Of a DNA stretch of 46,729 nt, positions 8,388 to 13,816 are shown piece after piece (within the stretch, counting starts at the first letter, position 1; each line of letters starts with the position of its first letter). Under the pieces are notes generated by a model. That model was given only the letters and a program-made list of their open reading frames with translations. It made no database searches and had not been told where the DNA came from. The stretch lies in assembly GCF_010499455.1 (NCBI RefSeq), contig NZ_JAAGOH010000033.1, positions 1-46,729 of the forward strand. Direction: 5' to 3'. The translations under genes were made by a program, and so were the position numbers. This DNA comes from Ideonella livida (lineage in GTDB: Bacteria; Pseudomonadota; Gammaproteobacteria; Burkholderiales; Burkholderiaceae_C).

Positions 8388-10019
8388 TCAGGCAGGCAGG
8401 GTGGCCGCCGCCATTTCGTCCCGGCCCAGGCGGGCGGCACGCACCATGGCCGCAGCGCGCTCGGCAATCATCACCACTGCGGCATGGGTGTTGCCGCTGA
8501 CGATGCGCGGCATCACCGAGGCGTCCACCACCCGCAGGCCGTGCAGGCCCTGCACCCGCAGCGTCGGCGACACGACGGCCAGCCGGTCCTGGCCCATGCG
8601 GCAGCTGCCCACCGGGTGGTAGATGGTGTCGGCGTGTTCGCGGATGAAGGCGGCGATCTCGTTCTCGGTCCGGGCCGCGCGCGACGCGGCCCGCTCCACA
8701 CCGCCCAAGGCCATCAGGGCCGGTTGGGCCAGCACCCGGCGGCTGAGCTGCACGCCCCGCACCAGGCGGTCCAGGTCATCGGGGTCGCTCAGGAAGGCCG
8801 GATCGATGCGCGGCGGTACCTCGGCATGCGGACTCTCCAGGCTGACCCGACCCCGGCTGCGCGGCTGCAACAGGCACACATGGAGCGAGAAGCCGTTGCC
8901 CCACACCAGCTCCCGGCCATGGTCCACCAGTTGGGCCACCACGAAATGCCACTGCAGGTCTGGCACCGTCTCCTCCTCATGGCTGCGCAGGAATCCGCCG
9001 GCCTCGGCAAAGTTGGTGCTGATCAACCCGCGCCGCTCCCGGCGCCAGGGGCCCCAGGCCCGCGCCAGGGCGGCCAGGCCATCCACCGAGAGCGCCACTC
9101 CCCCGGTGGCCTGGGGGGCCTGCACCGCCAGCACCACGTCGGGGTGGTCGTGCAGGCCGAGGCCCACACCCGGCAGCGCATGCCGCACCGGCAGGCCCAG
9201 CCGCAGCAGCTCAGCCGGCTCTCCGATACCCGAGCGCAGCAGCACTGCCGGCGAGAGCAGGGCACCGGCGCACAACAGCACCTCATGGCGGGCCTGCAGC
9301 GTCTGCAGGTCGCCTGCCAGGCGCACACGCACGCCTCTGACACGCCCGTCCTCCACCACCAGGTCCTGCACTTCCGCCCAGGTGTAGACCTTCAGGTTGG
9401 GACGCTCCAGGTGCGGGCTGAGGTAGGCACGGGCGGTGCTGCAGCGCTGACCGTCGCGCTGGGTCACCTGGTACGCCCCCACGCCTTCGAGTTCCGGCCC
9501 GTTGAAGTCCGGGTTGTGGGCCCAGCCGGCCTGGACCCCGGCATGGATGAAGGCCTCGCGCAGGGCCGGCGGGCTGCGCAGGTCGGCCACATTGAGCGGA
9601 CCGCCTGTGCCATGCCAGCGGCTGGCGCCGCGCTCGTTGTGCTCCGCCCGGCGGAACCACGGTAGCACCTCGCGCCAGCCCCAGCCTGGGGCGCCGTGGT
9701 CGCGCCAGTGGTCATAGTCGCTGGGGTGGCCGCGCACGTAGACCATGGCATTGACCGAGCCGGAGCCGCCCAGCACCTTGCCCCGCGGCTGGTAGCCCCG
9801 GCGTCCGTTCAGGCCCGGCTGCGGGGTGGTCTCCAGGCCCCAGTTGTGGCTGCCGGTGCGTGCCATCACCGCCAGGCCCGCCGGCCACTGCACCTGCCGG
9901 CTGGTGTCGGCGGGGCCGGCCTCCAGCAGGGCCACCCGCACCTCCGGGTCCTCGCTCAGTCGGGCAGCCAGCACACAACCGGCGCTGCCGCCGCCGACGA
10001 TGACGTAGTCGAAATCCAT
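8388..10019 (-). CDS. GMC family oxidoreductase (choline/alcohol dehydrogenase-like)
   Basis: 543 residues, usual for BetA-like flavoproteins. The N-terminal dinucleotide fold is YVIVGGGSAGCVLAARLSE, with the FAD-binding acidic strand end in LLEAGP. The GMC signature GKVLGGSGSVNAMVYVRG is present, as are the C-terminal catalytic HPVGSCRMG and the FAD segment VVDASVMPRIVSGN. The start MDFDYVIVGGG at 10019 is the standard beginning; the frame runs 43 codons further without family features. It should oxidise an alcohol with FAD, but the substrate cannot be told: no betaine aldehyde dehydrogenase or choline regulator is adjacent. Its upstream region faces the thrS leader. Confidence 0.88.
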   Translation of the reverse strand: MDFDYVIVGGGSAGCVLAARLSEDPEVRVALLEAGPADTSRQVQWPAGLAVMARTGSHNWGLETTPQPGLNGRRGYQPRGKVLGGSGSVNAMVYVRGHPSDYDHWRDHGAPGWGWREVLPWFRRAEHNERGASRWHGTGGPLNVADLRSPPALREAFIHAGVQAGWAHNPDFNGPELEGVGAYQVTQRDGQRCSTARAYLSPHLERPNLKVYTWAEVQDLVVEDGRVRGVRVRLAGDLQTLQARHEVLLCAGALLSPAVLLRSGIGEPAELLRLGLPVRHALPGVGLGLHDHPDVVLAVQAPQATGGVALSVDGLAALARAWGPWRRERRGLISTNFAEAGGFLRSHEEETVPDLQWHFVVAQLVDHGRELVWGNGFSLHVCLLQPRSRGRVSLESPHAEVPPRIDPAFLSDPDDLDRLVRGVQLSRRVLAQPALMALGGVERAASRAARTENEIAAFIREHADTIYHPVGSCRMGQDRLAVVSPTLRVQGLHGLRVVDASVMPRIVSGNTHAAVVMIAERAAAMVRAARLGRDEMAAATLPA

Positions 10020-10079
10020 GCGCACTCCCCAGGACCGGCGGGATGCGCCATGTTCGCCGGCTGGCGACGGCCACGCCTC

Positions 10080-10108
10080 GGCACAAGCCCGGGGGGCCGG
10101 CTTATACT
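10080..10108 (+). promoter_or_regulatory. Candidate promoter of the thrS leader
   Basis: A -10-like TATACT at 10103-10108 lies 17 bases after GGCACA at 10080-10085, which matches only the ACA half of a -35 box. Transcription would begin near 10115, about 40 bases before the leader ORF. This is the best-placed start for a transcript that contains the leader peptide and terminator, but the -35 match is weak. Confidence 0.35.
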
Positions 10109-10153
10109 TGCCACTTTCAACCGGCATCAGGACTTGGAAAGGCAGCACGGGTT

Positions 10154-10195
10154 ATGACACCGCGAACTACTCCCTCCCATCCGGAAGAGGTTTAG
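10154..10195 (+). CDS. Putative threonine-rich leader peptide of thrS
   Basis: A 13-codon ORF encoding [13 protein letters not shown]. Three of the 13 codons are Thr (ACA, ACT, ACT), and codons 5-6 are tandem Thr codons at 10166-10171. A purine-rich GGAAAGG lies about 11 bases upstream as a possible, rather distant, ribosome site. The stop at 10193-10195 lies two bases before the segment proposed as the antiterminator strand. The ORF is too short to be called on coding statistics; the support is its codon content, its place before a terminator, and the identity of the next gene (threonyl-tRNA synthetase). Confidence 0.55.
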
Positions 10196-10244
10196 TCGGC
10201 CGCGGCTCAACTCCTGCGCATTCCTGCGCCAGCCCATACCCCCC

Positions 10245-10276
10245 AAGACGCGGCCTCCAGGCCGCGTTTTTGTTTT
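10245..10276 (+). terminator. Intrinsic terminator in the thrS leader
   Basis: Seven G-C pairs (10249-10255 with 10260-10266) close a four-base loop, extended by A-T pairs, and are followed by TTTTTGTTTT at 10267-10276. The T run is only on the plus-strand side. There is no plus-strand gene upstream before tex/patatin, which are separated by the minus-strand GMC gene, so it most likely ends a leader transcript. Confidence 0.8.
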
Positions 10277-10340
10277 CCAGCAGGGTGCACCGTCGCCGGC
10301 CCGTCCGGGCCCCGCGCGCCACCCGCCCCAGGAGCTTTGC

Positions 10341-12260
10341 ATGATCACGATCACCCTGCCCGATGGCTCGAAACGCGAGTACCCGGCACCCCTGACCGTG
10401 GCCGACGTGGCCGCCTCCATCGGCACAGGCCTGGCCAAGGCGGCGCTGGGCGGCAAGGTGGGCTCGGGCGAGGCCGCCCGCCTGGTGGATACCAGCTTCC
10501 TCCTGGCGCAAGACACGGCCCTGGCCATCATCACCGACAAGCAGCCCGAGGGCCTGGAGCTGATCCGCCACTCCACGGCCCACCTGCTGGCCTATGCCGT
10601 CAAGGAGTTGTTCCCCGAGGCCCAGGTCACCATCGGCCCGGTGGTCGACAACGGCTTCTACTACGACTTCTCGTACAAGCGCTCCTTCACCCCCGAGGAC
10701 CTGGCCACCATCGAGAAGAAGATGACCGAGCTGGCCAAGAAGGACGAACCGGTGGTGCGCCGCGTGCTGCCCCGCGATGAGGCTGTCGATTACTTCAAGG
10801 GCCTGGGCGAACACTACAAGGCCGAGATCATCGGCAGCATCCCGGCCGATCAGGAGGTGAGCCTGTACCGCGAAGGTGCCTTCGAGGACCTGTGCCGCGG
10901 CCCCCATGTGCCCAGCACCGGCAAACTCAAGCACTTCAAGCTGATGAAGGTGGCCGGCGCCTACTGGCGCGGCGACCACCGCAACGAGATGCTGCAGCGG
11001 GTGTACGGCACGGCCTGGGCCAGCAAGGACGACCTGCAGCAGTACCTGACCATGCTGGAGGAGGCCGAGAAGCGCGACCACCGCAAGCTCGGCCGCGAGC
11101 TGGACCTGTTCCACATCGACGAGCACAGTCCGGGCACCGTGTTCTGGCACCCCAAGGGCTGGACCCTGTGGCAGGAGGTCGAGCAGTACATGCGCCGTGT
11201 GTACCGCGAGAACGGCTATCTGGAGGTCAAGGGGCCGCAGATCCTGGACAAGACCCTCTGGGAGAAGACCGGCCACTGGGATAAATACCGCGAGAACATG
11301 TTCACGACGGAGTCGGAGAAGCGTGACTATGCGCTCAAGCCGATGAACTGTCCCGGCCACATCCTCATCTTCAAGCAGGGTGTGAAGAGCTACCGTGACC
11401 TGCCGCTGCGCTACGGCGAGTTCGGTCAGTGCCACCGCAACGAGCCCACCGGCGGCCTGCACGGCATCATGCGCGTACGGGGCTTCACCCAGGACGATGG
11501 CCACATCTTCTGCACGGAGGACATGATCCAGTCCGAGGTGGCTGCCTTCACCGCGTTGCTCAAGAAGGTGTACGCCGACTTCGGCTTCACCGACATCCTC
11601 TACAAGCTCTCGACCCGCCCCGAGAAGCGCATCGGCACCGAGGAAAGCTGGGACAAGGCGGAGGCCGCGCTCGCACAAGGCCTGAAGGCCGCCGGCTGCG
11701 ACTTCGAGTACCTGCCCGGCGAGGGCGCCTTCTACGGCCCCAAGATCGAGTACACGCTCAAGGACGCACTGGGCCGCCAATGGCAATGCGGCACCATCCA
11801 GGTGGATCCCAACCTGCCCGAGCGCCTGGATGCGGAGTTCGTTGGCGAGGATGGTCAGCGCCACCGTCCGGTGATGCTCCACCGGGCGATCGTGGGCAGC
11901 CTGGAGCGGTTCCTGGGCATCTTGATCGAGCAGCATGCGGGCGCCCTGCCCGTCTGGCTGGCTCCCACGCAGGTGGCGGTGGCCGGCATCACCGATGCGC
12001 AGGCAGACTACGTGCAAGATGTGGTCAGAACACTCCAGAAGCAGGGTGTTCGGGCGGTGGCAGATTTACGCCATGACAAGATCACCTATAAAATCCGCGA
12101 GCACTCGATGCAAAAGGTTCCGTACATCCTCGTCGTTGGCGACAAGGAAAAGGCAAGCGGGGCCGTCGCGGTGCGTGCCCGGGGCAACAAGGACCTGGGC
12201 GTGATGTCGCTGTCCGACTTCCAAGAGAAGCTCGCCAGCGACATGGCGTCCAAGGTCTGA
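10341..12260 (+). CDS. thrS: Threonyl-tRNA synthetase
   Basis: 639 residues, full length. An N-terminal TGS domain (about 1-62) is followed by the editing/SAD domain with [16 protein letters not shown] and the [10 protein letters not shown] segment. The class II catalytic core carries Cys337 in MNCPGH, the usual zinc ligand, and motif 2 within [14 protein letters not shown]. An anticodon-binding domain ends the protein ([12 protein letters not shown] to the C-terminus). It charges tRNA-Thr and edits Ser-tRNA-Thr. The AGGAG ribosome site stands 8 bases before ATG 10341. It heads the classical thrS-infC-rpmI-rplT-pheST-ihfA block, and the leader upstream suggests control by threonyl-tRNA supply. 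Confidence 0.98.
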
Positions 12261-12301
12261 GGTTCACCCCGGTTTTCTCGCACCGGTTTCATTCATACAC
12301 C

Positions 12302-12329
12302 AGTCCCCCCGCTTGCCTGGGGGCCTTTT
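12302..12329 (+). terminator. Terminator-like hairpin between thrS and infC
   Basis: Five C residues (12306-12310) can pair with five G residues (12319-12323) around an eight-base loop, flanked by an AG/CT pair, and are followed by CCTTTT. The structure ends just before the infC ribosome site. It may be a partial terminator or attenuator that sets the ratio of thrS to IF3, or part of the IF3 translational operator; it is moderate in strength. Confidence 0.45.
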
Positions 12330-12342
12330 GAGGGTTTGCACC

Positions 12343-12891
12343 ATCGCTACCTTTGCCGACCGGCGGATGCCGAACGTCGAGCGCAAGCATCGACTCAACC
12401 GCGAAATCACGGCCCTGCATGTGCGCCTGAACGGCGTCAACAACGAGCCGCTGGGCATCGTCGCCATCCAGGACGCCCTGCGCATGTCGGCCGAGGCCGA
12501 CGTGGATCTGGTGGAGATCGCCGCCCAGGCCGATCCCCCGGTCTGCCGCCTGATGGACTACGGCAAGTTCAAGTATCAGGAGCAGAAGAAGGCCGCCGAG
12601 GCCAAGGCCAAGCAGAAGGTCATCGAAGTCAAGGAAGTGAAGTTCCGTCCAGGCACGGACGACAACGACTTCGACATCAAGCTGCGCAACCTGCGGCGCT
12701 TCATCGCCGAGGATGGCGACAAGGGCAAGGTCACGCTGCGCTTCCGCGGTCGTGAGATCACCCACCAGGAGCTTGGCATGAAGATGCTGGAGCGCATCCG
12801 CGAGGAACTGGCGGATGTGGCGGTGGTCGAGCACATGCCCAAGCTCGAAGGCCGCCAGATGATCATGGTGCTGGCGCCCAAGAAGAAGTGA
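12343..12891 (+). CDS. infC: Translation initiation factor IF-3 (AUC start likely)
   Basis: 182 residues from ATC at 12343. IF3 N-domain ([41 protein letters not shown]) and C-domain ([36 protein letters not shown]) are both complete. GAGGG at 12330-12334 is eight bases before ATC, while the in-frame TTG codons at 12313 and 12328 overlap the hairpin or the ribosome site itself. E. coli infC uses AUU and is self-regulated because IF3 rejects such start codons; the AUC here fits that rule. IF3 prevents premature 30S-50S joining and proofreads start codons. An ATG at 12367 would cut off eight residues and lacks a good ribosome site. Confidence 0.93.
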
Positions 12892-12917
12892 TCCCGGGCC
12901 GCTGCGGCGGCCGCCAC

Positions 12918-12947
12918 TTCACGAGATTCCATTTTTCCCGCGATAAT
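12918..12947 (+). promoter_or_regulatory. Candidate internal promoter before rpmI-rplT
   Basis: TTCACG at 12918-12923 and GATAAT at 12942-12947 are 18 bases apart, matching four and five of six consensus positions. It lies just after the infC stop and would give a leader of about 150 bases before rpmI. Confidence 0.45.
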
Positions 12948-13037
12948 GCGGGGTTTGCTGCTGGCGGTTGGTCGCTGCCAGTGGCGTTGTCCGTGGTGTG
13001 CCGGCTTGTGCCGGTGTGCGGCGGACGTCCAAGCCGT

Positions 13038-13743: not shown

Positions 13744-13774
13744 AAGGCCGTCACCCACCGGGACGGCCTTTTTT
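13744..13774 (+). terminator. Intrinsic terminator between rplT and pheS
   Basis: AAGGCCGTC (13744-13752) pairs perfectly with GACGGCCTT (13762-13770) around a nine-base loop, followed by TTTT. It should end most rpmI-rplT transcripts, so pheST needs its own promoter or read-through. No Phe-rich leader ORF was found before it. Confidence 0.85.
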
Positions 13775-13816
13775 CATTTGTCCTCCGCTGCACGCCTTGC
13801 GCTGCACGCCCCCACG

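Follow-up and report, generated by a model that had tools for sequence, protein, structure and literature searches.

Escherichia coli thrS is the textbook example of a synthetase that represses its own mRNA, and the Bacillus subtilis thrS leader belongs to the T-box class, in which tRNA binds the leader RNA directly. How, then, might the gene be controlled in Ideonella livida (Burkholderiales), where it heads a gene cluster in the 46,729-nucleotide stretch of DNA analyzed here (the window)? The region immediately upstream (10103–10276) is in all likelihood the leader of the thrS operon, acting as a ribosome-mediated transcription attenuator that senses charged tRNA-Thr. In this light, thrS would present a case of one gene moving between protein-based, tRNA-based and ribosome-based control.

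Anatomy of the leader

The ORF at 10341–12260 is identified as thrS by TIGR00418 (725.7 bits against a cut-off of 383.65) and is followed in the window by infC, rpmI, rplT, pheS, pheT and ihfA. The gene 5' of it, a GMC oxidoreductase (start taken as 10019), is divergent, and thrS therefore needs a promoter in the gap of about 320 bases. A strict consensus scan of 9700–10700 returned no promoter; the putative −10 box of Table 1 lies ahead of a short ORF. The only terminator-like site that a consensus scan found in that interval (11 pairs; shuffle mean 0.3) stands between this ORF and thrS. The first-pass annotation had read the arrangement as a threonine leader-peptide attenuator, and its coordinates for the ORF, the Thr codons, the pairing strands and the terminator arms all proved correct when checked base by base.

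Table 1. Features of the thrS leader, in window coordinates
Feature	Position	Strand	Remarks
Poor −35 candidate GGCACA	10080–10085	+	17 nt upstream of TATACT
Putative −10 TATACT	10103–10108	+	from sequence; one mismatch from consensus
SD-like GGAAAGG of leader ORF	10136–10142	+	from sequence; 11 nt before ATG
Leader peptide ORF, 13 sense codons	10154–10195	+	ATG 10154, TAG 10193–10195
Leader ORF Thr codons 2, 5, 6	10157–10159, 10166–10168, 10169–10171	+	5 and 6 tandem
Strand 1 CCGCG, within leader ORF	10160–10164	+	pairs with strand 2; window fold, RNAalifold of A1 and A2
Strand 2 GGCCGCGG	10198–10205	+	begins three bases past leader stop codon; GGCCGCG is 10198–10204
Intrinsic terminator, strands 3:4	10245–10270	+	T-rich tail to 10276; consensus scan, folding
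Strand 3 CGCGGCC, terminator 5' arm	10249–10255	+	alternative partner of strand 2; fold of 10183–10258
Terminator 3' arm GGCCGCG	10260–10266	+	followed by TTTTTGTTTT
thrS start	10341–10343	+	ORF to 12260; SD-like AGGAG 10330–10334

Conservation of the leader core in relatives

The 18-mer GGTTATGACACCGCGAAC was taken as the leader core. Among 80 thrS loci from named Burkholderiales records (the best 80 of 578 confirmed), the closest being that of Ideonella sp. B508-1 with a 90% identical ThrRS, the core precedes thrS with at most two mismatches in 68; one further locus (L034), with four mismatches, was left out of this count. It is absent in 11 of the 80, nine of which keep a terminator of the form GCGCGG...CCGCG before thrS. 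The short Thr ORF is kept in frame in relatives, with strand 2 kept beside its stop codon, as would be expected if the attenuator reading were correct.

In the genome of I. livida itself, the exact core occurs once, upstream of thrS, with six other sites at two or three mismatches. In a genome-wide count made irrespective of the position of thrS, 118 of 150 genomes from the window's family have a match to the core when one mismatch is tolerated, and in 117 of the 118 it is a single copy (G418 has a second, one-mismatch match); the core read backward as a control gave five matches in four of the 150. At the level of the class (274 genomes), the exact core appears, among the matches listed, only in three genomes of the window's family, and with up to two mismatches 80 of the 274 genomes have a match somewhere in the genome, but the backward-read control also matched many.

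As a separate observation, six loci (L014, from Limnohabitans, and L031, L035, L041, L051 and L069) are without the leader ORF and have the GCGCGG...CCGCG terminator right before thrS, where it starts only 28–30 nt after a TAAAAT box.

Selection for threonine in the leader ORF

The leader ORF, 10–15 codons long, starts with ATG in 76 of 78 leaders and with GTG in two, and its opening ATG-ACA-CCG-CGA-ACT (MTPRT) is nearly invariant, third positions included. In the alignment of the window's type (A1, below), the SD-like GAAAGGC is likewise invariant or nearly so. The peptides, e.g., MTPRTTTTTFTGN, MTPRTTTTSTQV and MTPRTTTETSTGR, hold between two and eight Thr; that of the window has three, and some have just the two of the core. 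Codon 6 draws on all four Thr codons across the leaders. When the region from codon 6 to the end is considered (72 distinct regions from the 78 leaders), Thr accounts for 141 of 551 codons as against 43.2 expected from composition shuffles (z 15.8; none of 2000 shuffles exceeding 69), with 13 and 12 in the two other reading frames of the same regions. Phe (z 10.0) and Glu (z 7.6) also exceed expectation. Two sequences were left out of the codon counts: G295 (MRPPTT) and L045, which has no stop codon before thrS and was also omitted from the stop-codon-hairpin and promoter/mimic counts. These patterns make a strong case that the leader ORF is under strong selection for Thr.

Terminator and alternative helices

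A terminator is present in 80 of the 81 motif-bearing leaders, the exception (L066) being excluded from every count made after the terminator scan; the ORF of L045 extends through it. In these 80 leaders it ends 16–172 nt from thrS (median 27.5), and in 51 of 79 no more than 35 nt separate its end from the thrS ATG. In 70 of 78 leaders the motif CGCG is encountered no further than 30 nt past the start of the leader stop codon, with shuffled spacers giving a mean of 14 and a maximum, over 500 shuffles, of 27.

Folded freely, the window leader adopts helices 1:2 and 3:4. If the bases to 10182 are covered and the RNA is made to 10258, the minimum free energy structure is 2:3, with 10198–10204 paired to 10249–10255 (−20.7 kcal/mol); if the cover extends to 10210, 3:4 folds. 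With strand 1 covered but the leader at full length, the terminator remains the lowest-energy fold, and any such switch must therefore be kinetic.

The relatives fall into two alignments—A1, with 28 leaders of the window's type, and A2, with 34 of the Hydrogenophaga/Acidovorax type—while L019, L026, L044, L067 and L074 have neither type of strand 2 and are in neither. RNAalifold returns helix 1:2 together with the terminator in both. Changes on both sides of a pair are seen at two pairs in A1 and one in A2, all within the terminator; covariation of 1:2 and 2:3 is almost absent because there is hardly any variation in strands 1 and 2. Compared with composition shuffles, 26 of 79 scorable leaders attain p≤0.05 for the duplex energy of 1:2 (median 0.08) and 17 of 79 for that of 2:3 (median 0.20), the window's own values being 0.105 and 0.05, respectively. 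Of the checks that the first-pass annotation had proposed for its helices, then, folding bears them out, both in the alternative states of the window and in the consensus structures, whereas covariation lends no positive support, strands 1 and 2 being so nearly fixed and the complementarity within single leaders modest.

Two other structural features are visible in the A2 type. One is a hairpin across the leader stop codon, seen in this group (L007–L079; Hydrogenophaga/Acidovorax/Variovorax type) in the form GGCC-loop with UGA/UAG-GGCC. It has compensated variants: GGGTC:GACCC in L028, GACC:GGTC in L053, AGCC:GGCT in L077 and CACCGTC:GACGGTG in L009. Its median shuffle p is 0.08 over 36 leaders, 13 of which have p≤0.05, as against 0 of 30 in the window's group. 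Around the leader start codon (10150–10162 in the window, and its counterpart in relatives), GGT and ACC are invariant in A2; their pairing could enclose the start codon in a loop of 6 nt, the RNAalifold structure of A2 shows it within a small hairpin loop, and two variants, GGTTATGGTACC and GGTTATGAGACC, retain the complementarity.

Thr leaders in other families of Burkholderiales

A broader sample consisted of 120 order-level genomes, 119 of which matched the ThrRS N-terminus (two weakly, G345 and G380); 80 thrS upstream stretches were taken from them (L088–L167), comprising the best-scoring genomes and members of further families. A terminator lies within 180 nt of thrS in 58 of the 80, and 22 of these 58 have an Arg-Thr ORF of 7–26 codons (shuffle mean 2.4, maximum 8); in 10 of the 58 such an ORF has at least four Thr (shuffle mean 0.1, maximum 1). 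By family codes, the 22 are spread over 16 families, the window's own included. Eight are of the MTPR type, and among the rest are MSFRTTTTGTLNLG, MFKRTTTTRISR, MFRTSTTTQS, MQLNRTTTTS and MAVRTTTTHP, the last of which starts at ATG and was counted from an internal GTG; of the 22, two or three may be chance matches.

Arg-Thr was chosen as the search core after the sequences had been viewed, and a test by codon box is independent of that choice: of 69 genomes without the MTPR core, nine have at least four ACN within six codons versus 0.4 expected, the top ratio among the 16 codon boxes, with the TTN box also raised (17 versus 7.7). Only counts of at least four ACN were used because a tRNA-Val gene probably inflates those of at least three, for which GTN and GGN rise too. 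This gene, tRNA-Val(GAC), precedes thrS in the same orientation in 56 of the 80 order-level stretches, where leader and terminator would sit between it and thrS.

When 17 divergent leaders were scored for pairing, helix 1:2 reached p≤0.06 in five (G383, G340, G333, G277 and G369), which is suggestive, and 2:3 was unsupported, attaining p≤0.06 in one (G321) and never falling below 0.06. The attenuation model is therefore weaker beyond the window's family: within that family the case is strong, and outside it the model is only probable. Most sampled members of the family seem to use stalling on Thr codons for thrS, and other Burkholderiales families seem to use different versions of the same device.

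A model of attenuation and its alternatives

The proposed mechanism would operate as follows. Transcription would begin just 5' of the 13-codon ORF, in which Thr codons 2, 5 and 6 would gauge the supply of threonyl-tRNA. When this is scarce, the ribosome would stall on strand 1, leaving strand 2 free to pair with strand 3; no terminator would then form, and RNA polymerase would read into thrS. When it is plentiful, the ribosome would reach the stop codon adjoining strand 2, and the 3:4 terminator would form. If the ORF were not translated at all, 1:2 and 3:4 would fold and transcription would stop too. In this manner, the leader very probably lets the cell sense a shortage of charged threonine tRNA. 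The class of mechanism is classical, and the locus has what such an attenuator displays: a Thr-enriched leader ORF, a terminator between it and thrS on what appears to be a single transcript, and helices 1:2, 2:3 and 3:4 that exclude one another, for the window by folding and less clearly in relatives. The reading proposed in the first-pass annotation is thus upheld by the conserved Thr ORF, by strand 2 and by the alternative folds.

Might the gene instead be controlled as in E. coli, with ThrRS binding its own leader mRNA at a mimic of the tRNA-Thr anticodon arm and the ORF and terminator being incidental? E. coli thrS is known to be regulated in this way, and the cluster from thrS to ihfA has the same gene order there. 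However, a candidate mimic (7-nt loop with NGU) occurs in 17 of 79 leaders as against 15.8 (sd 3.3) in shuffles, and none is present in the window; the terminator, so close to thrS in 51 of the 79, leaves little room there, and the Thr selection in the ORF would go unexplained. Such control is accordingly judged very improbable here. The same low probability attaches to the view that the terminator serves only to close a transcript coming from upstream, or to generate a small RNA, with the thrS promoter downstream of it. The tRNA-Val gene ahead of thrS in other families could need a terminator, and the best match in an Rfam scan of 9000–13000, ncS025 (RF02869), does cover the terminator, but at 23.4 bits it lies below the gathering cut-off of 46 and was rejected. 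NcS25 adjoins a porin gene rather than thrS in the account given in PMC10117139, and a whole-genome search for ncS025, run with no positive control that worked, gave no match. The window's upstream gene, moreover, points away from thrS, and this view too leaves a Thr-coding ORF unexplained. The distribution of promoter-like boxes bears on the same question: 48 of 79 leaders, as against 4.5 in shuffles, have a TAnAAT-like box 40–77 nt (median 51) ahead of the leader ATG, whereas a −10-like box between terminator and thrS is found in none of the 79, in a gap that is short, often leaves no room and would yield few by chance. Given these boxes before the leader, their lack after the terminator and the shortness of the gap, thrS is very probably expressed by read-through of the terminator.

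A further alternative accepts the leader ORF as functional and has it act by other means—nascent-peptide stalling on MTPRT, or an effect on translation or on the access of Rho—and not by stalling on Thr codons and a 2:3 switch. The near-invariance of the first five codons even at third positions, the RNAalifold structure of A2, in which the start codon occupies a small hairpin loop, and the statistical weakness of 2:3 in many relatives would all fit this. Against it, only some of the other families retain MTPRT, with Arg-Thr and runs of Thr recurring in other contexts; the Thr excess falls outside the MTPRT block; and strand 2 is strongly conserved in leaders that, L066 apart, all bear the terminator. 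Action of the ORF by such other means hence appears very unlikely, and stalling on Thr codons coupled to the 2:3 switch is the reading preferred.

Relationship to known leaders

The thrS leader resembles the proteobacterial attenuators trpL, hisL, thrL, leuL and ilvL in having a short ORF with regulatory codons, a stop codon before strand 2, strands that pair as 1:2, 2:3 and 3:4, and a terminator before the gene. Unlike these, it precedes an aminoacyl-tRNA synthetase operon and not a biosynthetic one, and its Thr codons are few or scattered (two to eight) behind a nearly invariant MTPRT start. Closer in this respect is the E. coli pheM-pheST system, where leader-peptide attenuation governs a tRNA synthetase operon within the same gene cluster; that leader senses Phe-tRNA before pheST, whereas the one described here would sense Thr-tRNA at the head of the cluster. 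The E. coli thrS operator regulates the same gene and cluster but does so through translational repression by the enzyme, and the leaders studied here show no above-chance anticodon-arm mimic.

Attenuation of aminoacyl-tRNA operons is reportedly the subject of Lopatovskaya et al. 2010, the survey likeliest to have predicted a thrS leader. In the literature searched, beyond whose reach lay that survey and Vitreschak et al. 2004, no report of a betaproteobacterial thrS leader was found, and a prior prediction is possible. The first-pass annotation had considered a ribosome-stalling leader for thrS to be new in this group; none was found for the group, but the idea of a Thr leader for thrS is not itself new, a thrL-thrS leader having been proposed in Streptomyces lividans TK24 (PMC8079986). 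As presented in that source, it shares with the leader of the window a short Thr-containing ORF, MKRVRPFLETTPGFVPAR, upstream of thrS and differs in being leaderless and actinobacterial, with two Thr, no clear terminator and no evident kinship to MTPRT (PMC8079986). A terminator within the thrS leader is also described for B. subtilis, together with cleavage by RNase J (PMC3997798), and threonine starvation induces that gene according to the title of a paper cited there. In the window, the Rfam scan of 9000–13000 (E≤5) gave four weak matches, none of them a T-box and none above its cut-off, and a T-box was rejected on this ground.

With no Rfam match above cut-off and no report found in the group, an essential operon—threonyl-tRNA synthetase, IF3, L35, L20 and PheRS—would thus gain a specific regulator. 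A more far-reaching interpretation may be offered tentatively, and as a whole it is rather doubtful: that a family of leader peptides senses Thr-tRNA on behalf of the entire thrS-infC-rpmI-rplT-pheST-ihfA cluster in much of Burkholderiales (Betaproteobacteria), that ATGACACCGCGAACT, nearly invariant in the window's family, is at once coding and a switch strand of the RNA, the start codon lying in a hairpin loop, and that this arrangement stands in place of the ThrRS autoregulation known from E. coli and ties the synthesis of IF3, L35, L20 and PheRS to the supply of threonine.

Other features of the cluster

Between rplT and pheS (13745–13775) there is a second hairpin resembling a terminator, AAGGCCGTC...GACGGCCTTTTTT, some 45 nt upstream of the ATG at which pheS probably starts (13817); inspection by eye revealed no Phe-rich leader ORF before it. 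Further upstream in the cluster, infC apparently begins at a rare ATC codon (12343–12345; ATCGCTACCTTTGCC), and the start codon of E. coli infC is likewise non-AUG.
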